A program made the position numbers and the translations under genes. A DNA stretch of 64,000 nt, from the NCBI RefSeq assembly GCF_035083965.1, contig NC_089723.1:19805489-19869488 (forward strand), read 5' to 3'. This document shows, in pieces, positions 14,534-62,505 of this stretch. Each line of letters begins with the position of its first letter. The first letter of the stretch is position 1. The notes below the pieces were generated by a model. It did not search any database and was not told the origin of the DNA. It worked only from the letters and a program-made list of their open reading frames with translations. The DNA is from Branchiostoma lanceolatum. Its lineage: Eukaryota; Chordata; Leptocardii; Amphioxiformes; Branchiostomatidae.

Positions 14534-14642
14534 ATTCTCTTTGGATTTGTGTATCGCTAAGACACCTGAAGGTCTGAGACACTAAGGAAATGGACGGAAG
14601 TCCACTAAGTATTACTACTTTGAAGCAACTCCTCCCACAGGG

Positions 14643-25314: not shown

Positions 25315-25357
<43 letters not shown>

Positions 25358-26771
25358 ATACACACACAAAAACAATACCTCTATCATTCTTGAAGGTAAC
25401 ACTGGCTAGAAGAGAAAAATAGGTGATAAGTTATAAAACTTATAGTCATATTGATGATAAGAATGCATCCAATACTTTCACATAAAATTTTTTTACAACA
25501 GATATGTGGGCTGTAAACTCAGGATCTCAAATTGGTCATCCTCACTTCCATCTTACCCTGTTGCGGAGACAGTCCGCTTCCTCCCGGATGTTCTCTTCAA
25601 TGCTGCCACGTCCGACCTTCATGCCCAGATTCTTCAGAGTGCTGGTAGCAAACCTCTTCCTCTGTCTGAACCCGGCCCCCCAGCGAGCAGTAAGGATGTC
25701 TACAGGGACATGTAATTCAATACATAGGACATATTGTATCTACATGTATGCTGCTGAGAGGACACACTGTTGATGAAATTCAGTGAGACAGTGAGTACAG
25801 GGTAGTTCCACACGTTGTACGGTTTTCAGCGAGGCTATGGTAGAACCGACCGAAGACAAAGACTTTTCAGTTTTCTGTTACCAGTACAGGGTAGTGAAAA
25901 TGTATGTAAATTTTTGCAATATTTAGTAAACGATCTGATTAAAGTAATGTTAGTAAACGTTTTGATTTATGCCTAAATTACACATAAGTAAATAAGAGGT
26001 AATATAAACAAAACTGTAATGTATATATGATTAACTAAGAAAAAAATAACGCATAAATAAGAGAATTTGTACATAACTATAGGATAATGTATGCATAACT
26101 GTATGAATATGTTTTAATGGCTATAAGAAAATGTGTGCACAACTTTAAGATATTAGTTGCGTTAAGACAAGCGTTTTCGAGTCAACTCGTGGGGGTTCGG
26201 ACTTGATTTCTTTTTGTCACATGAATGTATTCCCAAGACATGGAAGCATTAAACAATTAAACTTGAATGAGTATATTCCTTCAATAACACCACTCCCTAC
26301 TTAGAATGACCTAAGTTTTTGTTGTACACCTTTCGTACAACTTTTGTCGTGAAAAGCATAAAGTGGTTGAATGTTACCTTGTCCGAACCCAACCATCACT
26401 TCAAGCAGGTAGACTGGCACCTTGGTCGCGAACAGCTCGGACCTGGTCACGAGTACGTCCTTGATGGCAGTGTAGCCGTTCAGAACCACCACATCTTCCG
26501 TACCCATCCTGACGGTGAAGACGTCCCCACACTGCCGCCTCCATGCCATGAACAGCTTGAGGAAAGGCCCTCGGCAGAAGGCGATCGCGAGGAGGTGCCC
26601 GAGAACAGGCACACGACCAGCCGGGTAAGGGGGCAGGTTTCGGGAACGTCTGAAGACGACACACGCCAGGAGAAAAGTCGCACAGATGGCAAGGGGTGTC
26701 TGCAGAGTCAGCCAAGAGATCTGCAAAATCTCCTGGACGGACTCAGCTATCCACTGCACAGCACCGGCCAT
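22548..26771 (-). CDS. CYP2-clan cytochrome P450, 7 exons, 510 aa
   Basis: Microsomal haem-thiolate monooxygenase; the substrate cannot be told. Exons in gene order: 26771-26378, 25699-25557, 24281-24071, 23794-23511, 23367-23182, 22993-22858, 22726-22548; phases close to 511 codons. An N-terminal anchor ([20 protein letters not shown]) is followed by the proline-rich hinge NLPPYPAG typical of CYP2 enzymes. The I-helix is AGTETT (319-324). The K-helix E375-x-x-R378 (EVMR) is present. PERF lies at 429-432. The haem loop is FSGGRRVCLG with C456 as iron ligand. Length and hinge fit CYP2 family members such as CYP2U/CYP2R-like enzymes; the subfamily is not assigned. Nothing is broken. The introns carry a CA-rich dispersed repeat. 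The P450 at 44434-49874 is of another clan and not a tandem copy. Confidence 0.92.
25070..25415 (-). repeat. Dispersed repeat with CA microsatellite (copy, in CYP2 intron 2-3 region)
   Basis: It has the same order as the copy at 21240: 'atgtccagaaaaaaattgcc', 'gctttaccaaaatcacacac', 'caatccatccagaatc', then (CACA)n mixed with CAGA at 25252-25370 and 'aaaacaatacctctatcatt'. It lies in an intron of the CYP2 gene between 24281 and 25557. Confidence 0.7.
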
Positions 26772-29172
26772 TTTCTCACGAGTGCAGAGGGTGACCCAGT
26801 TACATGGGAATTGGGTGACCTATGACCACCATTGTTTACAGTGGTCATCCACGAAAATCAGATAAATTAGCAGGTGTAGAGAAAGACAAGCGAGGCCATA
26901 AAACCGATCAGCCCTTAGATGGTGGAATGTATCATTTGTTGAATTATTATCATTTATGGTGAAAAAGCATTGAAAACGCAACTACAACTAAATAAGGTAC
27001 ATTCGCTGGCATATGTCGCCTATTTACTAGAAAGAGATAAAAAGTATAAACCACTTCAGCATTGTATGTTAGTATATTTTAGTTGTTGGACTTGTACCAC
27101 TATCAAATAAAGTATGCCATGAACAGATTCATTGGTACTTTTAAACAGGATCATCCGGTAAGCTGGCTGTTCTGTGGCTAAACTAACAGTTAGGTGTGCC
27201 TGTTATCTAGGCTACAGCCCTTATCAGTACTGACCAACAGGTGACCTCTGCTTCTGTTGACAGAGTTTGGGGCATGTTCACTCAGGGGTAATCAGGAAGG
27301 AACAAAACGTACTTTGAACAACACATGCAGCATTCCAAGGCTACTGAAGACTATGGAACTCATTTTTACACCAAACCAGCAGTCTTACTTGTACAAGCTG
27401 ATGTAAAATACTATTAGGTTGTTTCTCACTGTCATTGTAGAATCCTTGTGGGTAAATCTACTTCACCTATTAAATTCCACAGGGTAACGTATATCTGTAA
27501 TTTCTAAAAGCGGGGTATTCAGGGATATGTGTTAGATGTAACATCACAGTAATACCACCAGAAATGCAAACTTGACAGACTGACGCATTCAGATCACTGC
27601 CTGCTTCGATAACCCTGCATTCGAAGACGAACACGTCAAAACCTTTCCACCCCATAGCAGAATGAAACAGTCGAGCTGGTCATGGGAAGATTCGAACTAC
27701 GGTGTTCGTTCGTGGGAACAAATTCTCTTTTGCGACGTAGCCATGTGGAACTTAACTTGATTTTTTGTGCTAAGACAAGTTTCTATCTTTAGCACTCTCT
27801 TCAACCCAAGAAAGGAACAACAGCTGCGTTATGAATTAAGGTGGTTAGCGACAAGATAATTCTCCTCTTGGAAAACGGTTACGCCAGATTGGTGTCAACT
27901 AACTCTTGCGGATTTCGGTAAACTAGCGTTATTTATGCTATGTAGGTTACGTTAAAATCCTTTCCACATCTTCTGGCGAATAGGGGCGGTGCGCAAATCC
28001 ATGTCTACAGCCCCTGGGCCACACATAGCTATGTTTAGCTAGTTAGTAATTGTCATATATGTTTGATGATGGTGATTATATTCACCTCCAGTCAGAGACT
28101 ACCAGAACTTAATGTCTAGTGGGTGTACTTGTCTATGTTACCGTTTGAGTCAAATATTATCGTAATCCATCCAGAGGTTCTTGAGATATGCTGACTACAA
28201 AAATCAGAAAAAAACAAACAAACACACACACACACACACACACACAGGCACACACACACTCACACGCACAAGCACTTGCACACACACACACACACTCGCG
28301 CGCGCGCGCGCGCACTCCTATATACCATGCAGTTGGTAAAACATTTATTAGATTCTTTCGTTAACATTTGGATCGTACAAACGACACGTCCAAACAGATG
28401 TGTAGATATACGTCTTTATTAGCTTCCTTTTTACACAAGGAGGTCATAAATGGAGAAGCTATTACATACGTTGCAATTGCTAAAATATATCAGAACACTT
28501 ACACAGATATTCTATTGATGTTAGACATTGTACTGTAACTGACAACATCCAATGCCAAAGCCGGCCAGTGTACATCAGTGTTTAATGTATTTCCTCACAT
28601 AATAATTCGTGTTTTTTCTGACGAATAATGTTTACGGTTCTTCTTTATCATTTTCTATCCATGTGCACTGATCTGTATTAGTTTATCCAATCTGTTACGA
28701 GAAAATTTGAGGAGGCACAATTATGTCAGGAAACTATATATGTTTTCTTATTATCTTCATTTCATGCAATGATACAGTACAAGACTCTTTACGTTGCCAG
28801 AATTCTAAGACATTGAAATGGCTCATTAGACGAACATGCTTATTTGGTACGTTGAATATGTCTGCAGCACACAGCAACCTAGTACGCTCTTTACTTACTG
28901 TAAGTTTTACTCCACAAGCCTAAGTACTTTATGTACACACTCACATTTCTTCCTCTTCCCAAACAAATAACGTGAACGACCTGGAACAGATGGTTGTCAC
29001 CATGGTTACTGGTACAGACACAATGTTCAATAGCATCATGTAACAAGAGCTGTGGGGGCCTAGTCACCATACTATGAATGTATTTGATAATTAACAGAGC
29101 AGTAGTTTCGTAGGCTAGACATTATGTATTTGTTTACAAAATGTTACCTTTCTAGTTTTCCATTTATAATCA
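26772..29172. other. Intergenic between CYP2 and the first nicotinic-like gene
   Basis: No gene is seen in these 2.4 kb. A dispersed-repeat copy lies at 28110-28320. The last few hundred bases probably hold the 3' untranslated region of the channel gene to the right. Confidence 0.45.
28110..28320 (-). repeat. Dispersed repeat with CA/CG microsatellite (truncated copy)
   Basis: It contains 'atcgtaatccatccagaggttc' in the family order, then a (CA)n tract and a short (CG)n run (about 28297-28313). It is shorter than the copies at 21240 and 25070. Confidence 0.65.
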
Positions 29173-36011
<6,839 letters not shown>

Positions 36012-44433: not shown

Positions 44434-47400
44434 CTACGCTGTCTCTCCCTTCCTGCGTCTGAAGACGAACCGCGGGTTCCTGTCGGGCAGCAGCACCAGG
44501 CTGAAGACCTGTCTCAACTCCGCCTCCTCACACTCCACATGGAACCGCTGCAACATCTGGGAAGGGGGGGACCCAACAAATAATAAGAGAGCAACGTCAG
44601 GTACTAAACTTCTGCAGTAACTAACAAACAACAGGAGAGGAAATGTCAGAGTAGTTATTGAATAAGAAAGTGAACGAAGGAATAATAAACGAAATCAAAC
44701 TTGTTCTTATCAATGAATGAATGAAGACCTTTATTGTACATGTTTGCCCCACTGGGTTAAGCATAGGTCACATGTAAACAGTTATATACATATTCATGAG
44801 TATTACTGCATATAAACATCTAGCAATCTCCAGCACTTCCGACTTCCTCTCACTTCTTGGTAATTGTATAAATGTAGGAGGCTGTGTGATTAGCTAGAGT
44901 TTGTTAATCGAAGGCTGTAAGATATATAAATTTCTCTCTACTTTAAGAAATAAAGATTTCTCTCTACTTTTCATGTATCTGAAGTAGGGGAATTTACTTA
45001 ACATATCACTGAAAAGAATTATTCTATCGCTATCGTACAGAGGACAGTCTACAATAAAATGTACTTCGTCGTCTACGTTACCTAGACTACAAAATTGGCA
45101 TATTCTTTGATCAATGATTAGGACTGCTTACCCGGATAATCAGGAGCTGGAGCTGCTGTTCTGCAAACCGCCGTCCTGTTGAAAGAAAACGGATTTAAAA
45201 AAAAAAATGAGTTCCATTCTTTTCAAGATACAAAGAAAACCCACGTATGCGTTCAGCTTCGCGTATTTCCCAAATAATAATTTGTCAAAAATTAATCGAT
45301 GTAAACCTTGTGTCCTACATACCGATGCACATGCGCACTCCGTGTCCAAACGGCATGAACAGGTAAGTTGGAACTCGTGACGTATTTTCGTCTCGGAGCC
45401 AACGGGTAGGGTCGAAGGTCAATGGATCCGTGAAATACTTTTCCTGTCGGCACATGACGCGATGGTGTACCAGGATTTCGGTCTGGTGAGAGGAGGCAAA
45501 CAAAGACTGCCATCAAGTATAGTATTGTTGGATCGTATTTTGGCCATACAAGAGTTACTGATTCTGTTTTGTCAGCATAGAGAGTATTCAACCAAAGTTA
45601 AAGCTAGATATTAAACATAAAACACATGTAATCCATCTAGTAGCTTCTTTGCTATACTCTATATGTAGAAGATACAATGTAGTTGATAGATTACCTTTGC
45701 AGGTACATCGTAGCCACCTAGAACAACGTCATAGCCGTACTGTCTGGCAGTTCCGAAAATTACCGGCCACAACCTGCAGGAACCGGGAAAATAAATTTGT
45801 TTTACGATGATTGTTAGATTGTTCGGTGGTAGAAGAAGTTGTCAAATCAGAAAAAGGTAGCACCAAAACAGACCCGTAAGGTTATTTTCCGACATCTTAA
45901 CTGCAATGGTCCCCGCATGCAAATTATGGGAAATTTGGGTTACAGACAATCGAACGCCAACATTTGGGTTACAGAAAATCGAATGCCAACATTTTCACCA
46001 ATCCCCTTCAAGAAGACCACAGTATGTCCAGGACAAGAAATACAAAACCGACAGTTCTGCTGTAGTACCAAGGTTAGCCGCCAGGAGGCCTATACTCAAC
46101 ATTGACATTTGTGTTTACAACATCTACTTACACAGCAAATACCATCACAAGACACTCAGATGTTCTTACGTTATTACTGCGATAACACACACACACACAA
46201 ACACACACACACATACATACATACATAAACGGAGTCATAAACTATACCTAAATGTGAGAAAGAACGGTCCGATGTGCTTCAAAGGCACGGGAGGAACTAA
46301 GGTGCTACGGTAAGGTAAACTATACCTCCATTTTTCATGGAGATAACAATTTGGTTTTTGGCTGGAGCTGTTCCGACACTCTGCACTAATGCCTCACCTA
46401 AAAGTCTCCTTAATCACGGCTTTCAGATACTTCATCCTCCCCAGGACCTCGGGCGTGACCGGCGCGCCCTCGGGCAGATGGGTACGGATCTCTTGGTAGA
46501 CTTTGTCTTGGACCTCGGGATTCTTAGCCAGAGCAAATAGACTGTACATCATGCCATTGGTGGTCTGGAAAGAAATCAATTATTTTCAGCATTTCGAAAA
46601 TGCCCTTCAGCATTCAGAACTTAGTTGCATCTTTTCCTGCATCTTTTATTTTAGCCTTTTCTTTCTTTGCTTACGTATCGCTATATTGAATTTCTATTTT
46701 AGCATTCATGATAGTGACTATTGTTCACAAGAGCATATTATAGAAAAACGGTCTCTTCTAGGAGAACGGTAATACATTGGGACGGTATAAGAAAAGCACT
46801 AATCATCACCTTCTTCCCATTGCACAAACAATCAAGACATTATTTATAGATATATATAAGCTGCATATAAACATTTGCATGCAAAAAGTTATTTTCTCTG
46901 TCCATACCGTGTCGATGCCGCCCTGGAACAGGTCCGTGATGGTGGCGCTCACTTCTTCCTTACTAAGTTCCGTTTTCTTCAGAAGGTGCAACAGAAGGCT
47001 GTCCTGAGCTTTCGGGTCACCATCTCCGGAGTTCGTCGATGCTTGCTTGATATAACTTTCGGACAATCTGGATGAGAATAAATCAATAAGTTCCTATCAT
47101 CTGTCATGTGTCTTCGAAGAGATTAAGTTAATACTGAGTCGTTTTAGAGAGCAGACGGAATTAGAAGCTGGTATTAAAAATGGATCAATGTGGTCTTAAT
47201 TCTGTTGCGTTATACTACGTTTCTGCTACGTATCTCGAGATACACATGTAGCAGCCTACCAATATATACATGTACTTTGCAAATTGGTTTTGGCCATGGT
47301 GCTGAAACGTTGTGAATCATGATCATCTAAACAATTTTAGTAATGCAGACGACAAGTAAAGACAAAACAAGATGAAGATAAACCAATAGCCTTTCTGGGG

Positions 47401-49874
47401 CCATAGGGGTAGTGGGTTGTAAATCCACTGTGTCTAGGCCACTCCTTCTACTGACTTGTACCTCCCCAACCAAATACAGGTACAACTGGGTGGAACTAGT
47501 TAGCAAAGTCGTGTAAGTGCCTTTCCCAAGAACACAACGTCTATCCAGGAATACCAGGAATCAAACCCGTTACCTCTAGACATTGTGTCCGCTGACCTTG
47601 CCACGTACAACACTAAATACAAGTTTAACTTCATCCTTTCGAATTAGGCCAATAAAACACTAACCGGAAGAAGGTATCCTGAGCTGCCGCTATCTTCCTC
47701 CAGGTGGGAGTGGGGACTACTTTATACAAGGGAAGACTGAAGATCAGCTTCCCTACGCAGCGGAAGTACATCTGCGTGCTGCGGATCAGCCGCATCACGT
47801 CCGAGTTCTCGGTCAAATTCATCCCCAGACAGCCAACACGTATTCCGAAGGCCAGGCGGGCGATAGCTGTGGAGGAAAATGTTTTTGCAGTTACATGTAA
47901 TATCCAGTCATCTATCATGTTGTTTTGCAGTTAACATTTGAATCGTACAAACGACATAAAATACACAACACTATGGTTGGGTGATGTCATATTTCTAACG
48001 TTTTTGCTTAGCCATGATAGCTTCTTTTACACATCAAAGCTCTGAAAAAATAGATTACGCACATTCCAAGGACCACAGGTGCAGCTCGTCCTTGTAATTT
48101 CTCTCCATGACGTCACTTCCTGGAGCGCGGAGCATGTCGGTCCGCATGACGAACTCCTGTGCGATCCTGTCCATGTTGGGGAGGACTGCACTCTGCACTG
48201 CCGGTCGGAGGATCCGGTCTTGGGCCAGGCGTCTTAGACGGTGCCATTCCGCATCTTGTCTGAAAAATGCAGCAATGTTCATCCATCATCAAGCTCGGAG
48301 ACTGTGCATTACTTTTTTTTTCTTTTTCGGTAGGAGGTCGGTACAGATAAACTCACGACCATACACATGTAAGATTACCTATTTGGACTCACAAAAAATC
48401 AACTTGGACACTTTCATTGTTTACGTATACACATGCGATCCGTGCAATAACCGGAGGGTGTGTCCGTTACTTTACTTCGCTCGATACGTTATGCAAGTGT
48501 AGAACCTTACAGGTTGAGGAGTCCCAGCGGGATGCCCCGTGCGGTCCTGTACAGCGCATCAGGTTCGATCACCGTCCGTCCTGGATACCGGCCTTCCTAA
48601 AGGTGAATACTGTGTTTGTAACAATGTCGTTTTGATTTGGTATACGTGAAAAAAGTTGCATCGTACAGAGTACATGTGAAATAATAGATACCGGTAGCTG
48701 GCGCGGATGCTCATTTCCAGATATTGCAGTGATTTCTGATTGATCAAACGTTGCATCAAAGCACAGAAAAAAATGCAGATAATTGTAATTTATATTTTTA
48801 AGTCAAAACCATCTCCTTCCTAGCTCTACATATATCTGCATATCCACTTTCAGCCCAGGTGATATTGAATACCATACAATCTACAAGAGGTTTAAGTTCC
48901 CCTCTGAAATTCGGGTACTATTTTGGAAAGTTTAACGTAAACAGGTAAAAATTAATGAGAGCGCAAACGTCACGAATGATATTTTCTTGACAAAGCCGAA
49001 GAAGCAGTACAAGCACCAAACCTGCATGAAGACTTCTCGTGCAATCTCGCGTGAGAAGACGTGAACGATCTCGCGCCCGAGAAGCTTCTCTCTGCAGATG
49101 TCACCATACTGGCGGTGAAGGTCAAGATGGCGCTCGTGTAGCTTGCCCACTCCGTAACGACCTGGGCGGTGTAAAGCCAAGATGCAATTTCAGCAAGTAA
49201 TTACAAACGGATAACTGCCGAGATCGGTATATTATGTACAGATTGGCCGATATTTTACCTCGGGAATTCACATACAGCCCCGTCCATCCTCAAGGTCAAA
49301 TACTTCAACAAGCTATGTCGAGAATTTTCTTATCAGGTAACTTTAGGATACCATTGTCGATTCTCACGTGTCTTCCAATCACTGAAGAGCTCCCTGGTTA
49401 TCAAGATCTGCATAGCAAAGTTCATTCGCTGTTTTTTTTAATAGAAATCTTGCAAGGGATTACACATACGTCTACTCACAAGTATACATACGTACAGTGA
49501 ACAAAGTTTTTCTTCAAATCTGGTCTGTAGAATATTTGTTATCAGATGAATAGAAACGAGTTTCCAAATAGTTGCAGTGCTAATGCTATTGCGGATCTGC
49601 TGCGTCTGAGCTTGTAAGTTTATCTTACCATGATGCTTTCACATGTCTGCAGAAAAGAATCCTGCGTATTTTGAAACAGCTCACCTAAAGAGGAGTAGTC
49701 CTTAAGTCGTCCGATGAGCGGAAGTTTTGGCGGCCCTGGCATCGCGCGGAAAGGTACATTCCTGCCGGCAAGTCCCTCATCAGCTTCCGCCCATTCTGCG
49801 GCTAGTGCGGCGCACATCTTTCTCCTGCCCCATGACTTCAAGATGCCCACCGACCGTCTAGAAGGAACGAACAT
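44434..49874 (-). CDS. Mitochondrial-clan cytochrome P450, 11 exons, 515 aa
   Basis: Inner-membrane P450 expected to take electrons from adrenodoxin; relatives include CYP11, CYP24 and CYP27, acting on sterols or vitamin D. Exons: 49874-49685, 49161-49022, 48596-48511, 48259-48063, 47866-47665, 47067-46908, 46564-46398, 45773-45695, 45482-45323, 45175-45132, 44556-44434; phases close to 516 codons. The start at 49874 gives an Arg-rich, acid-poor presequence (MFVPSRRSVGILKSWGRRK). Then come the hinge PGPPKLPLIG and AEWHRLRRLAQDRILRP, typical of this clan. The I-helix GGIDTT lies at 321-326, the K-helix E378-TF-R381, and the haem loop FGHGVRMCIG with C459. The next stretch, GRRFAEQQLQLL, fits the basic RR..E redox-partner surface of the clan. 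All keys are present. Introns carry a SINE, a LINE fragment and a CA-rich repeat. The exact family is not assigned. Confidence 0.92.
44712..45125 (-). mobile_element. 5'-truncated LINE, end of ORF2 and 3' tail
   Basis: The reverse strand encodes RICQFCSLGNVDDEVHF then IVDCPLYDSDR, the C-x2-C-x12-H-x4-C pattern at the C-terminus of non-LTR retrotransposon proteins. After the stop a 3' region ends 'caataaaggtcttcattcat' with an ATTC tail. It inserted in the last intron of the mitochondrial P450, 7 bp from exon 10 on one side. Confidence 0.75.
45985..46345 (-). repeat. Dispersed repeat with CA microsatellite (copy, in P450 intron 7)
   Basis: It has the family order: 'agaccacagtatgtccagga', 'gttctgctgtagtaccaagg', 'caggaggcctatactcaac', a (CA)n/(CATA)n tract at 46185-46228, then 'tttttcatggagataac', as after the tract at 21483. 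Confidence 0.65.
47400..47605 (-). mobile_element. tRNA-derived SINE (family 1, copy 2)
   Basis: On the reverse strand the B-box-like word GGGTTTGATTCC lies at 47568-47557, followed by 'ttcttgggaaaggcacttac' and a 'ttggttggggagg' body, shared with the copies at 32822 and 50918. It lies in intron 5 of the mitochondrial P450. Confidence 0.6.
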
Positions 49875-49932: not shown

Positions 49933-52900
49933 GCCGGCGGGGATAATGCTATCGGAATGTCACACATAACGTTACACTGAACGTAATCTTTTCTCAGTAG
50001 TCCTATCTGTGACGTACGCTACGACATTTCGGTCTGACGTTGTTATCTTTCTATATACGCAGTAAGACAGCCTTGAAGTCAACGTGGTATTCTCGAGGTT
50101 TCACACATGTCAAAGTTGTGATAAAACAGAAGTAACCCGCAATGGTCGTGTGATGCACAGATCGTGGTTAAAGGATAAAACAACCACGGCGAGCTACCAA
50201 GGCCAGGTGAAGGGCGTTCAAACATGCAACGAAGGTTACTGACCTCCGGTGACACCCATACCCATAGACAAAATGTGTTTATATAAGAATGGACAAAAAG
50301 ATTGTTTTGGACTAATCTCTACCAGACTAACTGCGCCGGCTTTTGAGAAAATATTTGCCCGTAGAGTTTGTCCACCATAGAGTTTCATTTGCTGGCCGCG
50401 ATGGGGGATACTAACCTTCTTACTGACTTTCCGGGCCAATTATTCATTTTTTTGGACAAATTCTACGATCCATACCTCCGTAGGAAGGCCTGATGGAGGC
50501 TAGTTTTGGAGAAAGCTGCCTGCAAGATGAAATAGCTTCTACTAGGTCAAGTGTTGAGTGAAAACGAACAAATACGATGCATGATACTGACGTGTTACAA
50601 TTAAGGAAGAGTGTGCAAATTTTGCCGGTTGGGGTCTGCGCGGTCACTGCCAATGATTGGTAGCCTTTAGTTAGTTCGTACATTTACGTCACTATCAAAA
50701 ACGTAGACAGGCCATTATGCTACTGATGAAGGCCATATTTGTTGAACAATTTTAAGATTAACCACACTGAAGATTTAGAAAAAACAGAGGACACATTTCT
50801 ATATTTTGTTGGTCCCAGAATGTAACGCATTAGGTGAGGTGAGCCAATGGGATCGGAGGATGTCGCTTGATGTGATTGCTCGTTGACCCGCACTTTCGGT
50901 TCAGCGCGGTTAAAGTTTGACGTGTGGTCGTGTGGCGCAACGGCAGAGTGTTAACACGGCTCAGAACCAAGTGGTACCGGGTTCGAATCCTGTCATGTCA
51001 CCGATCTTGTGCCCTTGGGAAGGTCGTAGTAAGATCACCAGGTGGCGCCGAATGGCAGCCGCCCAAACCCTTGCGACAGTTCCAAAAAATGCAAGTGTGG
51101 AGCAAATATATATGTGTCTGTTGCCAACATGTATTATATGATTGGACAGATTGCACGGGTAATTTCTGACCAATAAAAAAGATTATTATAAGATGATATT
51201 TCGTATTTGGTAAGGAAAGGCGGGGCTTTACCTGTTAGACTTACAGCTTGTGACGATATGCGGCCTTGAGAGTTTAAGCAATCTGGCGATGAGATTCTGC
51301 AAGAGACATCGCTATTGTGTAATGAAGTCAGGCATGACGCGAATGCTACTTTGAGAATCAGCCAGTATTGAGCCTGTACATAGAAAGGAAATATATTTGT
51401 GACTACTATGTAACTGTTGGCACTGTTGATGGGAGAGAGACGTGCGTTGGTACCGGAACGAACAGGTGAAATGTTTTGAATACACGATCGTAACCTACAT
51501 GACAAGTGCAATTTCCAGCATAAGTAACAATAACATTGTCGCCCATACACTTCCTCAAACTTTTGAAAAGGTAGCATGTGTCTAGCGTTTGCTCCGGGCA
51601 TTGTTGTGTAGGTGCCGCGGGTTCCCAGCACGAGAAACACGAAAGTGTGGGGAGCTCCCCTTTCACTTCCCCACGTGGGCGTAACGCTACAGGAACCACC
51701 AGATGTAAAACTTCAGAAAACAGAAGTCTTCTTCACTTTCCTTTCCGTCTCGTGTTCTTCGTGAGAAGACGTCCGTATCAGGGCTTAAAGGATTCAAAAA
51801 GCAAGATTCCTTCAGTTATAACTTCTTGGCACATATAGCCGTGGTACTTGTCATTGTCACTGTCAAGTGTTGATGGTCAAAGACGTCAACGTTGTACACC
51901 TTAAAGTTCGGCGGGGCTTAATGCAAAGTGAATAAGGTAAGTGGCTTCTCTTAACACACTAAATTACACAAGTGCTAATATTCTGGAATTTGTTCTTCTA
52001 TTTGATTAATGTGGGTTTTAGGAGAACGGTAGCTTTCGGAGTGAAGTTGACTTTTGTGCATGCGTGCCGTGGGGTGGATTAGGAGTAAAATTCGGCAGCT
52101 ACCTGTACAACAACGTGCTTTTCAAACACGGATACCATTCTAAAGCGGCACTAGAACTATCTGCGTATACATAATGTCGCCTTTTATCAAAGCTTTGGTA
52201 CTGGCTAAATGGCCACATTTAATCCGACGGCGGAGAAGCTTCATACTTCTGCAGTTGAAGTAGTTTTGTCCTCTTGCTATGTCAGTTCTCTGTGAGTTAA
52301 AAGGCGGAAGTGTACGAGTTTAGAAAAAAAAACAGTACATTATTGAAAATGTTTCTCTCCGTCTTTTACAACTGTTCCACAAAAGTTCCATCTGTAAGAA
52401 GTCTCGAAGGAATCTATTTGCTGCGCATGCAGAGCGTAGGAAGGGAAAACGGCCACCTGGATCTCAACCTTCAAGTTAACAATCTCACGTTACGTACCAT
52501 TGTGTGTTAAGTGTTGGAGCCGTACAACAGGATACAACTTAACATTTTACACTCATTCCAGAAATGACAGACAGAATTCTTAACATTAAAAAGTAAAACG
52601 TTTATAACCCTTCCTAAGAGATCTAACGTATGAGCGAGTCATACACGGCTTTATTAGGTTGCAGTTTCCAACGGTAGTTGTGTAAATAAAGACTTGATAC
52701 AGGTGATCGAGTCCGATTTTACCCCAGTCAACCGCACGACAAAACAGAAAGGTCATATGACGTCAGTGGAAACTGTGTAACAAAACAAACATGTCGGTCA
52801 ACATCCCACTCACCTTTGGACGAGTCCAATGCGGCGTTGTCGAGGGAGGGCTCGGGCAGCCGATTGCTTATCTACTTAGGTACATTTCGCATTCGTCGCA

Positions 52901-53116
52901 CAACATATTAACAAGTATACGAAAATGGGATAGAAAAAGTTTGGAATTTTCAATTAGATAGATATTAAGGATAAAAAGGGTCCAATAATCTCCAGGATAC
53001 TGAACTTTGTTGATATTTGATATGATACAAATCAAATCTTTGCGCTCAAAATTTAACAACCAGGAAGAGGGTGAATACAAAAGTGGGTAGCACATTTTGT
53101 ATGTTCTTGTTGGGAA
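49933..53116. other. Intergenic between divergent P450 and Ig/TIR genes
   Basis: About 3.2 kb without a supportable gene. It holds a SINE at 50918-51060. A GC-rich patch near 52816-52865 on the reverse strand ends in a good donor (GTGAGT) and might be a 5' non-coding exon of the P450. Confidence 0.4.
50918..51060 (+). mobile_element. tRNA-derived SINE (family 1, copy 3)
   Basis: A-box-like GTGGCGCAACGGCAGAGTG (about 50932-50950) and B box GGGTTCGAATCC (50979-50990) keep the tRNA spacing. They are followed by 'ccgatcttgtgcccttggga', which no tRNA has and which matches the SINE body near 47400. No acceptor stem pairing is seen. Confidence 0.7.
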
Positions 53117-53124
53117 CTATAAAT
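53117..53124 (+). promoter_or_regulatory. TATA box close to the Ig/TIR receptor start
   Basis: TATAAATA ends 24 bp before the ATG at 53149. A start site 30 bp downstream would leave almost no leader, so either the leader is very short or the match is by chance. Confidence 0.35.
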
Positions 53125-53148
53125 ACGTGTTGTTTACATCCTCTGTAG

Positions 53149-56100
53149 ATGGTGCTCGGGACAGCATTCGCGATTCTCGCTCTTCTCGCGAGATCTGCGT
53201 TTCCCATGACGATCGCTCCGACTGACTATAACGGAGACTATTATGATTACTCAGATTACGGAGGTAAGAACGAAAACCTAAGTATGATATTTTTTTCATA
53301 AGCACAATCATATTTGAAATCTCGATGGAAGGACACGTGACATTGTCCCTTTGATCTTTTATCAATCTGTAGATATTATATTATCTTATTTGATCATGCT
53401 GTATTGAACCATTATTAAGGATCGCTACCTCAAGAAAAATAAGCGAATCTTCCGTTCGCTTCAGCTGGTTTTGTGAATAGAATAAACTCAGTTTGCTTGT
53501 TAATTCTAGACAAGTTTGTAAATATGAAATATGGTATAAGAAAACATGTTTCTAATGCCAGGAACATACTAGCATGCTGCTTAACTATGACGTTATCTAA
53601 TAATACGTGACTTTTTAATCAGATCCATGCGACTACATTGATGAACGTGAGATTCGCCGGGCCTATGAAGGGGAGGCGGTGGAGCTGAGATGCCCCCTAG
53701 CGGATTGCATCACTCCCAGCAGCCCGATCTCTTGGTTCAAAGATGGTAAAGCGTTCCCCTGGACAGACCAGTCGGCTGAAACGATCCAGATGAAAGGAGA
53801 CCTGAACGAAACGTTAGAGATCTACCCGGTACAGATTGCTCAGGATAACGGCACGTACCGATGTGAGGGTTTCAACGGGACGGAGCGGCTGGTCGGACAG
53901 ATATCACTCCACGTGAAGCGTCAGTACAATTCTTTTTTATCGCATGGCCATATTGCGTTCGTCGAGTCGGATGTTCTAAAACGGATGAGCATACAATAGT
54001 TGGCTTTAAGGCTTCGTCTGAAGTTCCGTGTACACTCCATACCGATACGTCCACATCAAATGGTTCCCGCAAATCAATATGGATAAACACAAAGTTGTTT
54101 TGCAAAAAAGTAAAGAAAATGAACATGTTATAACCTAGAATTGCTTTCGGGCAATAGAAAAAGTGTAGCAAGACGTGTACATTCCATTCATCATGCCTAG
54201 CTTGTATTGTACCTTTCCTGTAATACCAACTGGGCGAACACCTCTCTGAGAGGGTCTGTTTCATCATTCGTAATGTTCTTATTATCCTACCCCAGTGGCA
54301 CCGACCAAACAATCGCCGGTCATCCTCCATCCTACTACTAACGGTATGCACAAGGAGTACCGCCGCCTTGGACAGAACGTCACCTTCAGCTGCCATGCGT
54401 ACTTTGGCGTACAACAGATTATCAAGCAAGTGTACTGGCTCGTCGACGGCCACTTTATCGATGACACGGACAGGATCAAAGAGGGGTATACCACGAGGTG
54501 AGTTCTGATTCACGTGTACCCTCTAGCACTGCTTGCCCTGGAAAGGCTCTTTCATAGACTTGGAAGGACCTTTCCTTAGAATCGGAATGGGTTACGTTTT
54601 GTTTCGAAGGCCTGCGAAAAGCTCTTGTGTTGGTTTGAAAAGTCTCGTTTGTACGATGGGAAAGGCTCACCCTCCCTCTTTCTCCCCCCTCTCTTTTCGT
54701 CACTCATCTTCGTATGTTCAAGACATTTAAGGAAAAGCAGATACATTTGTACCATGTAAATGAAGTGTCGTGTTTCAATATCTGAAACCTCATTGTTTAT
54801 CTTCCTTACAATCGTAGGGAGGACGAGAAAGGAAAAGAGTTCGTGAACGGTACCCTGATCATCACTGACATCAAGCCTGAGGATTACAGCCAGTACACGT
54901 GCGTGGCTAAGAACCTGTTCGGTAATGAAACGGCACAGGTCCAGCTGGTGGAAGGGGACGGTGAGATGATTCTAGATCTTTGAACTGGTCTCATTTTTAC
55001 AACAGAAAATCTTACATTGATACACTGATGGTACTTGAAGCAGCAGAAAGAAAGTCCTTTGACTTATTTTTGTTAGCGCTTGCAGAGCTCATATGGGTGC
55101 ATTTGGGTTTGAAACTAAGAACCATTCTCACCCTTACAAAGTAGTAATAGTCTCAAATCCAGTTTCATGAAAGCTTTTGTATAGTTGCAACTACCCTGTA
55201 TTGCTTTTCCTATCTTTTTGGACGAATTTGACTCTGAAGAACATGAGGACCTGCATGCTCTTTTCCATCAGGCGAAGGCAGCCTATTTCTGTTTCCCGTG
55301 ATTCCTAGGGAAAGCCATCTTAGTCACGTAATGCGTAGCGAGGCGACCAAATTTTGCATAATCGCCTTTCTTGGTTTTAGTGTAATAGTAGGGAGTTCTT
55401 CTGAATTTAGCGTAAAGTGTTGTCGTGACCCTCCATGCAGACCCTTGCATGTAACGCTGAATTGGTAGTAGTATAAGATGTGAGCACAAGTTAATTCCAT
55501 TGTTCATAAAACTATAACCTGGATTGTCGTTGTTTCCCATAAATTTGAAAAAATCGAATCCTATTGTCCCAACCAGATCCTAGGAGTGAAAGTGCCGTCA
55601 AGGAAGATCTGAATGAGGAAATGCAGCAGTACAAGAACGGGGCGGCAGGGGGCGGTGCTGTGCTGATGATGGTATGTGTTCTGGCCTTGGTGTATTACTG
55701 GAAGAAACTGGAGATCCGTCTGATGATAAAGGACAAGTTCATGCCATTTGAGGAAGGAGGTATCTGTTGTTTTTGCTATATACGTGTTCAATATATTTGT
55801 CAGAATAATCCCATGGAGTATCATGCAGTGACACTGGGTAAACCTAATTCCAGTTTCAAAACACCATTTACTGTGGGAAAACTCATGGACATATGGCACA
55901 CATTGTTGGTTTTTATACAATGAACATTTAACTAGTTGGTCTGATAATTAAAAAGTGACTGGTGCATAATGAAAAAGTCTATAAAATCAATTTCCATTAA
56001 AGGCATCTTTGTCTATAGGAGAAGGTACTAAACAATGTCATTAACAATGAACGCTACCTGCTTGATTTGTCAGTTGGTTCGTTAATTGATAAGTGGTGAT

Positions 56101-59100
56101 TGACTGACTGATCTGTTGACAACTGGTTGTTAGCCCAAAAAGCTTAGATTGTATCCTGTAACAGTCCTTAGAATAGTCACTTGTTCCACTTGTCACCATT
56201 GTTAACTTGCACTGCATGTTTGTATACTTTTTCTATACGTATTCATTGTTTCATGTTGCAATTAGCCCTCAGGCAAGAACTTGTGACTAGAACTCTATAT
56301 GTTCTACAGACACCATTGAGCACACGTCTGAAGGTGACGAGGATTTCCAGTTCCATGAACAGGAGCTGCACGTGACGCACTTCACCATGGACGTCAAGTT
56401 GCAGCAGAACGCCAGGGTTCTTCTCTCCCAGGAGAAAGGTACACAAACTCAGGTCATTTGTTGTTATTGTTCACATTGTGGACTGCCAAGAGTAGCAAGT
56501 TTCCTTGCTGTTTCTGTAGGGTATACTTTTACAGGGAGGGTACCATGCTCGATGCACCTCCTCAAACATGGGACCCCTAATTTATGTCCCTTCCGAAAGA
56601 CAGGTGAAGCTCCAACCGAGATGCCTTTTCCAGGCCCATGATTTGAACCAGGGTCTCCCAGTAACATGTACGACTGTTAGGCTGCTACCAGTTGAGCTAC
56701 AGTGACCTCCCAAGTCAGAAAGTCACAGATTATCTGAATGACTGACTGACTGACAGCAGCCCTAGGAAATTTTCAGAAGACATCTAACAAACCTGTGGAC
56801 TGAAATTGGACTGCACTCTAAACTTTTGTATTTGATCATTTGACCGTAACAATGTAAAAAGATTTTCTAAGTTAAAGAGTTATTCATTCTTCAATCTACC
56901 TCCAGTTATTCAGACCAAAAAAACTTTGTAAGAAATAACCAGTTACAGAATGCTATCCTTAAAATGCAGGTCCTAAGGGTGTCACCTATGAAATCATCAT
57001 TGGTTCCGACAACAACACCAGGTCCGCCATTCGCCGACATGTTTATGGCATGCTGACGGACCAGAGAGAAGTCTCCTCCTCGACCCCTCAGATTCTGTCC
57101 GGCAATGAATGGAAAACATTCTGGGTCAGCTTTAAGGATGGGATTATTGAGGTTTGAAAGTTTGTCTTTCATGCATTAAAAGTATAGCTGCAAATAACTT
57201 TTTAGTGAAAAGATATAAGGTAAGCCTTAAAATGCTTTTCACCACTGCAGAGTGGAATAGTAGTAGTGGGTGTTGTTTCGTTTTTCTCAAGAGAACCAGA
57301 ACTAATGATCCAATTCGTTGTTCCATGTTGTTACAGTCTTGCTATGTTTGCTTCTTAGGTGGGAACACCAGGAGAGGATCCATTCCTGAAGTGGGTTCAG
57401 GGAGAGCATCTCAATGTCAAGTACCTGGGCTTCATGAACGGTTCCAGGGCAAAGGGCAAACTCAGGTTCTCAGACCTTGGTATGAGACCGTCTTCTTACG
57501 TTCTTTTGTTCAGAATTCATGACTCTGACATGCTATAATCAGTATTAAAAGAAACATTTTAATAATGGCAGCAGTTAGGAAATAACTTTTAGTTTTAGCA
57601 GGTTTAGGACCAAATGCAGTCATTTACTTAATAATCAAAGTCCCAGTTTTCTATCGTGAGGCTACAGTATATATAATACAACCTTTTTTTTTACAGGTTG
57701 TGTTATTTCTTATCTAAATTTTCCATGCATGTATGTCTTGTTTCTCCAGGTCAGAAGGAGTATGATGTCTTTATTCTGTACGACATCCAGCAGATAGGGT
57801 TTGTCAAAAACCTCCTCCTGCCATTCCTGGAGAAAACCTGTCGCTGTGTGGTCAGGATCGAACATCGCGACTTTGACGGAGGGACAGGTATGTTTCAGAT
57901 ACTGTAAATGCAGAAATGTTTACCTGGTTTTATGTTAGCGTTGTTAGCGGTGTACTCTTTACTGCGCACTTAAAATTACCGTGAATAGCTGACTGTAGGC
58001 GCTTCTATTGTTTCAAATGCGAACTCATAACCACTGCTAACACTCCATTTTCTCCCTGCCTTTTAGATTAATTTAAATCAAATCCCTGTGAACTTTTCTG
58101 GATTTACAATGATATTAAGCAATCAGTCATTTTTAAACTTCATATCAATATACGTTTCTTTTTACAAAATAAGGAACATGGTATCATAATATCAATCTAG
58201 ATGCACCGTTGTGTTCTCTTAAGTATTGCAATGATAGATTTTTCTGTTTATGACCAGATACATTTGAGAATTACGTGGAGTTCATCCAGCGGTCACGCCG
58301 TGTGCTGTTCGTGTTGTCTCCAAACTACGTCAAGAACCAGTGGATGAAGTTTGCCTCATGTGTCGCTCTAGACGAGATGCTGAGAGAGAAGGCAAGGATC
58401 GTAATGATTGAATACCTGCCAATCAAGGACCAGGAAGATTTTGAGGTAATTAACATATGTTTCAGGATAATCTTCATGAGAATCTTGGTAGGAAAAATTG
58501 TAACGTTTTCTGGCTGTTCTGAACTGGAAGTCTGGCTGCCAGAAAAAGCCACAATTTCCCTCCCGTTATCTGCTTGGAGGTATGTTTTAAAATTATATAG
58601 CATCATCAACTTCACAGGGTGTAATACAAATGGTCTTAAGAGCTGCCTGTGTAATAGTAAGTTACATCTACAGGACCAGGGGGTACATTGCAAAAGAGCC
58701 CCACATTCTGCTGAAAGACTGCTATCATTTACACTTTTCTTCCAGACACTGAAGATATTCAACGAGCAGGTTCAGAAGCTGATGAAGGCGGTCACCTGCA
58801 TCAAGTGGTCGGACCAGGCAGAGACCAGGACTGACCACCGGTTCTGGCGTGAGCTCCGCTACAACATGCCCAAGAAGAGAGTCCTTACCAGGAAGAGCTC
58901 GGCCTGGGAACTACTTCGTCAGCGCTCCGTTCAGGCCGACAGCGTCGTGTCCAATTCTGTCGTCCGTTTCGGGTTCCGGAGACAGAGGTCCACTCTTTCA
59001 GACGGCGTTGCTGACTACAGCAGGGAGAGCAAAGAAAGGTCCACACTTTCTGATGACAGCGCAATTATTGCTGAGGACGACCGTGAAGAGGCCACAACAC

Positions 59101-59177
59101 CATGTCTACGTTTTATTGACGAGACATGCGTGTGCAATGACAGGAGCAGCATGTTGGAGAAGGAGACGGTTCTGTAG
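53149..59177 (+). CDS. Ig-Ig-TM-FAMeT-TIR receptor (IL-1R-like), 11 exons, 709 aa
   Basis: Predicted type I membrane receptor with a TIR signalling tail. Exons: 53149-53263, 53623-53919, 54296-54497, 54818-54960, 55577-55759, 56310-56438, 56970-57151, 57359-57479, 57750-57887, 58258-58445, 58746-59177; phases close to 710 codons. A signal peptide (1-19) precedes an acidic, Tyr-rich spacer. Ig1 (39-137) has Cys, Trp and Y-x-C; Ig2 (138-252) has FSCHAYF, WLVDG and YTCVAKN. The membrane segment is 274-294, followed by KK, so the rest is cytosolic. Residues about 330-457 match the farnesoic acid O-methyltransferase-like domain: YEIIIGSDNNTRSAIRR, ILSGNEWKTFWVSFKDG, VKYLGF. TIR 458-605: box 1 YDVFILYD, box 2 RDFDGGT, then SRRVLFVLSPNYV, and box 3 FW (599-600). 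A serine-rich tail follows. No Glu follows the TIR Trp as in NAD-cleaving TIRs, so adaptor signalling is more likely. IL-1R relatives lack the middle domain. Confidence 0.9.
56540..56712 (-). mobile_element. tRNA-derived SINE (family 2)
   Basis: The reverse strand has an A box TAGCTCAACTGGTAGC (56699-56684) and B box CCTGGTTCAAATC (56652-56640) at tRNA spacing, then a body 'ggcctggaaaaggcatctcg' unlike family 1. It lies in intron 6 of the Ig/TIR receptor gene. Confidence 0.7.
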
Positions 59178-60781
59178 CTTATCATCTTATGCAGCCTCTC
59201 ACTCTCATAGGCATCCAAATTACAGGCAACCAGAACTCCACCAACATCCTAAGTGTGAGGCTATAAATGGATAAAATGAGCAATATAATTATCACAAAAA
59301 CTGTCTAGATTTTGCTTTGAATTCTTAATTTCAGTGATTACTGAGACATTCTATTGATGAACTATTTTCAATATAGTTGGGGTCAGTCACAAAGAAACAC
59401 CTTTTGTGTCATAGCGCTACGAATTCTTTGTGACTGACCCTCGTTTGGTGTGATGAAATGTGAAGCAAAGAAGCAAATATTGATATGGCATACAGACATA
59501 ATCCCAGTTTTTATATTTTGTGTGTATCATAGGACATTAGGCACCTCTTGTGATATGCTTGTACAGAAAGGAGCTATTACTATGTTTTGAGATTATCAAA
59601 CTTGGTACTTATATTGCAATCATGATGACTTATTCAATTACATGTACTTTGTTTTATTATGTCATTCAATTTAAAACACTTTGAAACTGAGCCTTGTAAA
59701 TAAGCTATCAATCAGAAACTAAAGAAGGACGTTTATCTTTAATCAAATTGCCATGTCACCAGTGTTTGTTACTTATCACACTTAAATTGCTTGTAGTAGT
59801 ATTACTATTAGCAAAGGAATGAAATGGCACAACAGAAAGGCTTGTTCATGTTTTTGCTTTATTGCCCACACAGGCAAAATTCATGTAAATGATGTAATGA
59901 TGACTTTAGGTGGACTTTCTGCTGTAACAAATACATCCCTTATCCAGCAGCAAGACTTTTAGTACATGTAATGATTGTACATATTACACCAAGTCCTGAC
60001 TTTACAATAACATAAAACAAAGAAAGCTTTTGATCATGAGGTTTGACCTTTTACACTTCATCAGCATAACTTAGTCTAAATAATACTAACTAAATTTCAA
60101 AATGCCTTTCTTATAACATATCATTACAAAGCTATATATACAGTGTCATGTATATGTGCCACATATCAGGTGCATGTCAAAAAAATATCTACCCCGGGTA
60201 GTTTATAATTTCCAAAATGACAGGAACAATGCATGATATGCTTAAACAGTCAACTCCTTATCACCTGGTCAGTCAACTTTAACATAAATATAATATTGAT
60301 TGAAAAGAAAAATAACAATTCATCTCATCTTCGCTGTCTCTTTTGATAAAAAGTCACATCTATTGATAAATGATAATTATACTTATAAAGTTCTTTCAAA
60401 GTGTTCCATTGAATATATACATACCCTTCAATATACAAATTCTACATTATATAAATTCCTAGCAACCACAACAGTTTAGTTTGCAGATACTTAGCAGAGT
60501 TTCATGGCACGGAAGACACAACACAATGCAAAAAAAAAAGAACATATTTTCCCACCTTTGCCTTTATGCCATAAATAAATTCTAATGATTTTCAATAATC
60601 TTCAAGTCTATAAACTTTATAATTAAATCAACCTTCTACCCTTTGACTCGTACCTAGGTTGTTCTGTCCTTTCAGAAGAAAGCTATTAGCTATAATCAAT
60701 TCATAACTTACATGTATAAGGAACAAACCTGTAGACTAGGACTGCTTCTGTCTAACATTCTACTTCATGATCAGTCTGATA
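59178..60781. other. Tail-to-tail 3' region of the Ig/TIR and YIPF6 genes
   Basis: No coding exon is seen. AATAAA on the reverse strand at 59863-59858 could end YIPF6 transcripts and AATAAA on the forward strand at 60574-60579 could end receptor transcripts, in which case the two 3' untranslated regions overlap. A small hairpin lies at 59380-59440. Confidence 0.5.
59380..59440. repeat. Short perfect inverted repeat
   Basis: GGGTCAGTCACAAAGAA and its exact reverse complement (17 bp each) enclose 27 bp in the 3' region of the Ig/TIR receptor. It could be a tiny MITE or an RNA hairpin in the 3' untranslated region. Confidence 0.7.
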
Positions 60782-62505
60782 CTAAGTGTCCGAGTGTGTA
60801 TGTGAAATTATCATCCAGCTGATAATAAAGTAAAACAAGAAGATTGGATAAACTGCCAGAGCTTTTCTGTTGACTGGCTGGCTGTCTCCTAGGAAGGCCA
60901 TCGCTGCAAAGGTCGACCAGGCAAACCCAAGAAGCACGGTTACAAACCGTATAGCGAACAAAACGATAGTCTGTGTAGCGGAGGCCGCGAGGATAATTCT
61001 GCAGACGATGAGTGCGATGCTGAGCGGCAGCACACAGTAGCCCAAGACACACACACTCTGGAAGAACGACAGCTGACCTCCAAGCAGCTGGGAGTTCAAG
61101 GTCACAACCACAGCACCCACCCACAGGATCACAAACACCTGTCATGACCAAAACTTACGTTAACTCATGGGTTTCTTTATGTAAAATGTAGAAATTCTAG
61201 ACATATTTCAAATACTTACTAGTAAGTTAAATGGACAACACCACTTGCAGTCACTCTCTACTTTTTGTTTCTTCACAAAGTTGAGATCTTCCTTTTGAAG
61301 GTTTGTTACCTGACTGTATTTTCTCTGTACATGTATAAATAAATAAATGTCAAAATGTCCTTGCAATGTTTTTGACTGCCTTTTATCTTTTTCTTTGCTT
61401 TCTTACAATTCCTCATTAAATTGGCTTTTTGCTGATACTGAAGAATCTCAAGACATAGCAATAGGGAGGTTCAAATGTATGCTTGCACTTGAAGTTTTGA
61501 GTCTGGACATGCATTTGATTATACACATCAAGAATCCTTTGGTCAATTTGCATAACAAGGTTTGACTATAGGTGGAAGGCCAAGAAATTTCCATTGAATT
61601 TCCCAAGCTGGTGCCGAAGTTGCTGAACAGCGAGTCCCGAAGGACACAATCAGTGTAAAGTATGACGGAAAAAAAGACTTGCGCTAATGACGGGAGCATT
61701 TTCGAAGTGGCCGGAAGCACGCACGCTTCCTCTACAGAAATTCTGTAGCGTACTAGTATTGCCCATGGTCTGACGTGTTTGGTTTATGGCCTTCACCTTT
61801 GACCAAGCGCATGCATCAAACCTCGTCAATACTTAATCACAACTGTGGTGCTGCACTACTTCTCTATAGAGCCAGGGGGCTTACCTCAGCGAACTGCGGT
61901 GCTCCGGTGTCTGCTGCGTTGTCCCCCTGTAGTAAGAGTGCCACCATGACACACAGCACCAGGGGGCCCCACAGGTCCCACTCTCTCAGTAAGGACCGGC
62001 TGCCTTTCAGTGGGTTCAACACATGCACAAACTTCTTCCCAACAGCCTGAAATTTAAAAAAAATACACCTGACTGGATATACAAGAACACAAGACACATA
62101 CGATTATATATGTAACTCATATGAACAGCAAATAACTGGCTTTCTCTTGCCAGTATAAATCGCTTTATATATATTAAAGGTGTTTTTGTCATGCGGAAAT
62201 TTAAGGCTTTGACAGGAAAGAATCATCTGATATAGTCCATGATCATGATTGAAACAAGAAACACCTGTTACTGTCGTGTTTTAGGCTTTAGCAAACGTCG
62301 CCGCCCCTCCCCTTCTACACTTCCTCATACTGTTGTCACGAAATACCTTGAGATCTCTGAGAATGGTTTCCTTCACCGGCTCGTCTAGGGTGGAGAAGTC
62401 GTCCTCGTCCTCCTCGGGAGGAGCCCCGGGGACGGTGATGTCCCCCTCCACGTCAAACGGCACCTGGTCCGTCACGTCAGACACGTCAACACTCGTCGCC
62501 GCCAT
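60782..62505 (-). CDS. YIPF6: YIPF6, Yip1-domain Golgi membrane protein, 3 exons, 225 aa
   Basis: Multi-span membrane protein of early Golgi/ER vesicle traffic; YIP1-family members bind Rab GTPases and one another. Exons: 62505-62347, 62046-61885, 61138-60782; phases close to 226 codons. The N-terminus is acidic and cytosolic, with VPFDVEGDITVPG as in vertebrate YIPF6. Then come AVGKKFVHVLNP, LLREWDLWGPLVLCVMVALL (first span), and a GPQFAEVF-like GAPQFAEVF. Next are TLNSQLLGG, FFQSVCVLGYCVLPL, and the strongly kept DSQPVNRKALAVYPIFLFYF near the end. Human YIPF6 is of similar length (about 236 aa). It lies head-to-head with a small gene at 63181, about 680 bp away, which suggests a shared promoter. 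Nothing is broken. Confidence 0.97.

Follow-up and report, generated by a model that had tools for sequence, protein, structure and literature searches.

An IL-1R-like receptor gene of amphioxus with a FAMeT-like domain predicted between membrane segment and TIR

Receptors of the IL-1R and Toll types are usually drawn with the TIR domain directly behind the membrane segment. Amphioxus is an animal known for TIR hybrids: 28 TIR combinations have been reported from it, 20 of them specific to amphioxus (PMC2575513). Here, we describe a plus-strand gene at positions 53149-59177 of a 64,000-nucleotide stretch of Branchiostoma lanceolatum DNA (contig NC_089723.1, positions 19,805,489 to 19,869,488; hereafter “the window”, whose coordinates are used throughout). 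In its predicted product, a domain of the PF12248 family of farnesoic acid O-methyltransferase (FAMeT)-like proteins separates the membrane segment from the TIR domain, unlike the usual adjoining order. We read the gene, with a probability of about 0.58, as coding for a receptor of the IL-1R kind that would have received this domain as a shuffled-in exon cassette and would use it as a binding or clustering module. As far as sequence reaches, the open gene model, the order of the domains, the phases of the cassette and the in-frame product of its omission are established.

Domain order of the predicted protein

At E up to 1, the product matched 11 Pfam families. Two stretches of the Ig type (Ig_3, E=2.1e-18), predicted to be extracellular, are followed by PF12248, “Methyltransf_FA”, at residues 326-449 (E=3.3e-26; 92.2 bits against a cut-off of 24.2; positions 11-131 of the 140 in the profile) and by TIR (PF01582) in C-terminal position at residues 462-619 (E=2.7e-17). 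This is the set, and the order, that an earlier note made from the DNA letters had expected, including a FAMeT-like domain behind the membrane segment and ahead of TIR. NCBIfam had no matching family. Hydropathy windows of at least 1.6 begin only at residues 1-2 and 273-276, indicating a hydrophobic start and one internal membrane segment near residues 273-294, between the Ig and TIR parts. The ectodomain has six N-glycosylation sequons and the FAMeT stretch has two. Cysteine is absent from the FAMeT domain, which is compatible with a position in the cytosol, and the whole arrangement fits a predicted topology in which the Ig part is extracellular and the FAMeT-TIR part cytosolic.

The match to PF12248 was beyond chance: with E values up to 10 admitted, none of four control copies of the domain (three shuffled and one reversed) matched a Pfam family, in a search whose filters discard most matches above about E 0.1. 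Exon 7 by itself aligned with profile positions 47-100, and exon 8 by itself scored 17.5 bits (E=0.0034, under the cut-off) over positions 105-132, the next part of the profile after that of exon 7; exon 6 by itself gave no match. When exons 6 and 7 were joined, the score was 66.4 bits and the match reached back to profile position 11, and exons 7 and 8 together scored 75.7 bits. Since the domain match crosses both, junctions 6/7 and 7/8 are supported.

Searches beyond the profile added little. Among solved structures, the FAMeT domain had one match, at chance level (E=1.8), and the AlphaFold model of exon 7 alone (62 residues; mean pLDDT 43.1) was uninformative. No relatives of the domain were found in plasmid or phage collections, which say little about animals, and the 14 stretches that fitted the pattern among bacterial and archaeal contigs (genome_contigs), with little bearing on animals, included no relative. 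With the whole protein as query, viral_contigs, which likewise says little about animals, returned two stretches, neither of them a relative. With the FAMeT domain as query, the same collection gave one stretch counted as a relative, with no loci returned.

Gene structure and the exon 6-8 cassette

Introns 5 and 8 are both in phase 1, and exons 6-8 form a symmetrical unit of 432 nt. Joining exon 5 directly to exon 9 keeps the frame and yields a 565-residue Ig-membrane-TIR protein with the junction ...MIKDKFMPFEEGGQKEYDVFILYD..., which we take to resemble an ordinary passage from the juxtamembrane stretch to the TIR domain of the IL-1R type; solved structures gave no match for this membrane-TIR join without the cassette. 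Skipping exon 6 alone also keeps the frame. Because the phase-1 cassette is symmetrical and can be skipped in frame, its insertion into an IL-1R-like gene is the simplest history. The earlier note had proposed that a ligand-binding or oligomerising module was inserted into a receptor; the cassette supports the insertion, in that it fits exon shuffling, and the binding or oligomerising role is a putative one. Such an insertion is our best reading, with its direction drawn from phase and frame rather than from phylogeny.

The model comprises 11 exons and 10 introns of 207-616 nt, with a single open frame of 709 codons and one terminal stop (Table 1). We placed the exon boundaries manually and used GT-AG as one criterion; hence, the GT-AG ends of 10/10 introns give no independent support. 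GC content lies between 0.47 and 0.55 in all 11 exons, against 0.37 in the pooled introns, and GC at third codon positions (GC3) is 0.53-0.76 over the 11 exons and 0.62-0.76 in exons 6-8. This hand-built model agrees with the coordinates of the earlier note and with its junctions 56438/56970, 57151/57359 and 57479/57750, and reproduces its product of 709 residues. No second copy of the product or of any part of it was found in the window (tblastn, E up to 1). The antisense open reading frames (ORFs) at 53875-54522 and 58328-58771 matched no Pfam family, and neither did the C-terminal tail.

Where the transcript begins is uncertain because the TAG abutting the ATG might also be a splice acceptor. 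The sequence TATAAATA is found at 53118-53148 on the plus strand, about 25-30 bases 5' of the start codon. At the other end of the gene, the motif RSTLSD occurs twice in the tail, as FRRQRSTLSD and KERSTLSD, within 58975-59066 (+), and is a possible candidate for a phosphorylation or 14-3-3 site.

Table 1. Exons of the predicted receptor gene, in window coordinates.
Feature	Position	Strand	Content
Exon 1	53149..53263	+	Start codon and hydrophobic stretch resembling a signal peptide; preceded directly by an in-frame TAG
Exon 2	53623..53919	+	First Ig domain; phase 1-1
Exon 3	54296..54497	+	Second Ig domain, first half
Exon 4	54818..54960	+	Second Ig domain, second half; exons 3 and 4 jointly phase 1-1
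Exon 5	55577..55759	+	Membrane segment (about residues 273-294), juxtamembrane stretch WKKLEIRLMIKDKFMPFEEG
Exon 6	56310..56438	+	Start of PF12248 domain; phase 1-1
Exon 7	56970..57151	+	Core of PF12248 domain; 48.1 bits by itself
Exon 8	57359..57479	+	End of PF12248 domain; exons 6-8 a 432-nt module flanked by phase-1 introns
Exon 9	57750..57887	+	TIR box 1 (YDVFILYD) and the region of box 2 (RDFDGGT)
Exon 10	58258..58445	+	Middle of TIR; Ala in place of the Glu of aligned TLRs
Exon 11	58746..59177	+	TIR box 3 (FWRELRYNMP), 90-residue C-terminal tail, two RSTLSD motifs, stop codon

The introns and their surroundings are poor in repeats: there were no repeats of at least 20 nt within 55700-58300 and no tandem repeats within 50000-62000, and none of the 10 introns matched the rest of the window (blastn with low-complexity filtering, E up to 1e-4). 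On the minus strand of intron 6, at 56570-56720, a sequence can be made out by eye that resembles the A- and B-boxes of tRNA genes. It is possibly an old tRNA-derived short interspersed element (SINE) lying between two FAMeT exons; ARAGORN made no call there, and no second copy was present in the window.

Affinities of the receptor and competing explanations

The whole protein had 103 matches among PDB sequences at E up to 0.01, of which the best 60 were inspected. Among the matches listed, the Ig part was closest to DSCAM (1.8e-11), with IL1RAPL1 at 1.7e-10 (residues 42-248 aligned with its residues 138-338), and the TIR part matched TLR10, TLR6 and TLR1 and then, somewhat lower, IL1RAPL2. 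The TIR domain alone matched 17 PDB sequences at E up to 1e-4, and TLR10 (4.3e-12) and TLR1 (1e-11) stood slightly ahead of IL1RAPL2 (3.9e-11). These leading places of DSCAM and of two TLRs speak against an assignment to the IL-1R family, and the TIR score alone would not decide between IL-1R and TLR. The last part of the TIR domain, which includes box 3, had seven matches at E up to 10 and no TLR among them: six were IL-1R-family chains, matched weakly (IL1RAPL2 twice, IL1RAPL1, IL18RAP and SIGIRR twice; E 0.0085-0.89), and the seventh was an unrelated enzyme. The receptor thus appears IL-1R-like, a view for which its architecture and the closing part of the TIR domain count more than score does. 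A Toll-like receptor was rejected, as no leucine-rich repeat was among the 11 Pfam families, despite the top score of TLR10.

At one position, the Glu of the aligned TLR1, TLR6 and TLR10 is replaced by Ala in this TIR domain. A conserved Glu of TIR domains (E75) has been linked to NADase activity, and its frequency need not track such activity (PMC7075850). The Glu of the aligned TLRs would be the equivalent of E75, and NAD cleavage is unexpected here because that residue is replaced by Ala; a NADase TIR was rejected on this ground.

Several points weigh against a fused receptor. Exons 3 and 8 also contain a second open frame, donors 7 (gtttga) and 8 (gtatga) are not of the typical form, and the pyrimidine tract of acceptor 6 is poor (0.53). 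Splice signals and phase are what places junctions 5/6 and 8/9, the two that create the fusion, and the agreement of two phases is weak, as it would arise by chance in roughly 1 of 9 cases. A PF12248 domain in the cytosol would be unusual, given that CPAMD8 and the abalone shell protein UP5 carry signal peptides. An in-frame ATG precedes exon 9 within intron 8 (ORF 57677-57907), making a separate TIR-only start conceivable, and a separate FAMeT transcript with its first exon in intron 5 could be accommodated as well. Lancelet gene models are, moreover, a documented source of false domain combinations, prediction errors being found among the published ones, and mixed sets of extracellular and intracellular domains warn of gene-model error (PMC4967905). 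The earlier note had argued that the gene is no misjoin of two genes since every exon phase closes; the phases do close, but the argument built on them is a weak one in lancelets, whose models yield false combinations. The crossing of junctions 6/7 and 7/8 by the domain match counts for more, as do the findings on ATG, AATAAA and strand given below. Nevertheless, it is quite improbable that exons 6-8 or 9-11 come from another transcript and that the joined protein does not exist. The exons lie on one strand, the introns are short throughout and the phases match; no part of the gene is duplicated in the window; AATAAA is absent from 53481 (intron 1) to 60574, though ATTAAA is present in introns 5, 7 and 8; and, among the stretches scanned with Pfam, the flanking matches, P450-like on one side and Yip1 on the other, are both on the minus strand. 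Upstream of exon 6, its frame meets a stop after six codons and offers no ATG from there to the start of the domain. A nested separate gene for exons 6-8 was judged unlikely on account of this missing in-frame ATG and of the absence of AATAAA within 53481-60574. The fused gene could also be real while the cassette is an alternative one and mostly skipped, the main product then being the classical 565-residue receptor. The omission of exons 6-8, or of exon 6, keeps the frame as this would demand; the cassette, however, codes for an intact domain of nearly full length, and the GC3 of exons 6-8 is as expected of a domain in use, which makes predominant skipping unlikely.

Other explanations accept the gene and concern what the protein does. 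It could be an inhibitory receptor like SIGIRR or fish DIGIRR that withdraws adaptors, with the FAMeT domain acting as a spacer against productive stacking of TIR domains. This explanation shares its gene structure with the one we prefer and differs from it in function only, and the odds of the two overlap. Two Ig domains and a 90-residue tail recall DIGIRR, with its two Ig domains, and SIGIRR, with its tail of 95 residues behind the TIR domain, and the cytoplasmic part of IL1RAPL1, which is among the matched structures, did not activate NF-kappaB in chimeras (PMC3705552). The change from Glu to Ala points the same way, but the Glu is tied to NADase activity (PMC7075850) and its loss says little about adaptor signalling. 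The Arg-Tyr of box 3 is kept here (FWRELRYNMP), and DIGIRR has reportedly lost an Arg-Tyr pair, possibly another one (PMC3705552). On balance, we regard an inhibitory function as possible but doubtful. The family name alone suggests an enzyme acting at the membrane to methylate farnesoic acid or some other small molecule, which we find hardly credible. Methylation of farnesoic acid by FAMeT has never been reliably shown, and a fly mutant keeps its hormone levels (PMC10015273); the enzyme reading was rejected on this published evidence. In addition, no glycine-rich SAM-binding motif was seen by eye in the 124 residues of the domain.

We prefer the explanation of a real type I membrane receptor, of the IL-1R kind and probably from a cephalochordate, whose gene would have acquired a three-exon PF12248 cassette by exon shuffling, inserted after the membrane exon and ahead of the TIR exons. 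The receptor's two Ig domains would bind an extracellular partner, and its TIR domain would dock with adaptors of the MyD88 type. The cysteine-free cytosolic FAMeT domain is most likely a non-enzymatic binding or clustering module, which, by moving the TIR domain 144 residues further from the membrane segment, would favour, set or gate TIR assembly. Oyster MFCP, a PF12248 member, is reportedly microbe-binding, to go by the title of a reference. Since omission of the cassette leaves the frame intact, we predict that splicing could toggle between a classical and a FAMeT-bearing receptor. It is conceivable, though unlikely, that the protein is a two-input receptor in which the Ig domains read an outside signal, the cytosolic FAMeT domain reads a ligand of microbial or lipid nature and signalling by TIR requires the two inputs to agree, with splicing toggling the cytosolic input.

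Neighbouring features and comparison with known systems

The surroundings of the gene were scanned with Pfam in 29 stretches, while the window holds 497 ORFs of at least 50 residues, so that a plus-strand gene could be missed. Cytochrome P450 matches above the cut-off lie at 22595-26819 on the minus strand, and weak ones (E 0.004-0.011, below the cut-off) at about 46809-49189 on the same strand; the Yip1 match is at 60.8-62.1 kb, also minus. Farther off, matches to the N-terminal domain of copper type II monooxygenases and to the DOMON domain at 11682-12056 and 14132-14581 (-) point to a dopamine beta-hydroxylase-like gene. The ligand-binding domain of neurotransmitter-gated ion channels was matched at 35083-35547 (-), just under the cut-off (24.4 of 26 bits). 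The sole ARAGORN call in the window is a tRNA-Val-like element at 50918-51002 (+), which may be part of a tRNA-derived repeat; Rfam gave no match at gathering score anywhere in the window, this element included, and bases 50900-51180 had no second copy in the window.

Searches within an open-licence library gave no description of FAMeT or Methyltransf_FA combined with TIR. The word “farnesoic” is absent from the main text of PMC2575513, the supplementary list of partner domains standing apart from it, and from the main texts of PMC6526094 (LanceletDB), PMC6321704, PMC5094078 and PMC7075850. An earlier description elsewhere, or an automatic annotation of the combination in a database, is possible. 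One more TIR hybrid in an animal known for them is moderately surprising; the position between the membrane and the TIR domain is the interesting part. A domain placed there would mean that the distance between the two can vary, and would provide a natural test of how distance and additional contacts are tolerated or exploited by TIR domains. Since the cassette is in frame, products that carry the domain and products that lack it can be compared, which makes its effect directly testable. The receptor would also offer a concrete cellular setting for asking what PF12248 domains really bind.

The predicted protein can be set beside four groups of known proteins. Like members of the IL-1R family, it has an Ig ectodomain, one membrane segment and a C-terminal TIR domain whose end matches IL-1R chains; unlike them, it has 144 extra residues with PF12248 ahead of the TIR domain, and its Ig domains number two. 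With DIGIRR it shares the number of Ig domains and with SIGIRR the approximate length of the tail, whereas a FAMeT domain is not described for either in the available part of PMC3705552, and the Arg-Tyr of box 3 is retained here. As in the PF12248 proteins, namely insect and crustacean FAMeT, CPAMD8, abalone UP5 and oyster MFCP, there is one nearly full-length domain; insect FAMeT combines it with DUF3421, whereas its partners here are Ig, membrane and TIR parts. Finally, as in the hybrid proteins of amphioxus (PMC2575513), the TIR domain stands in an unusual combination.

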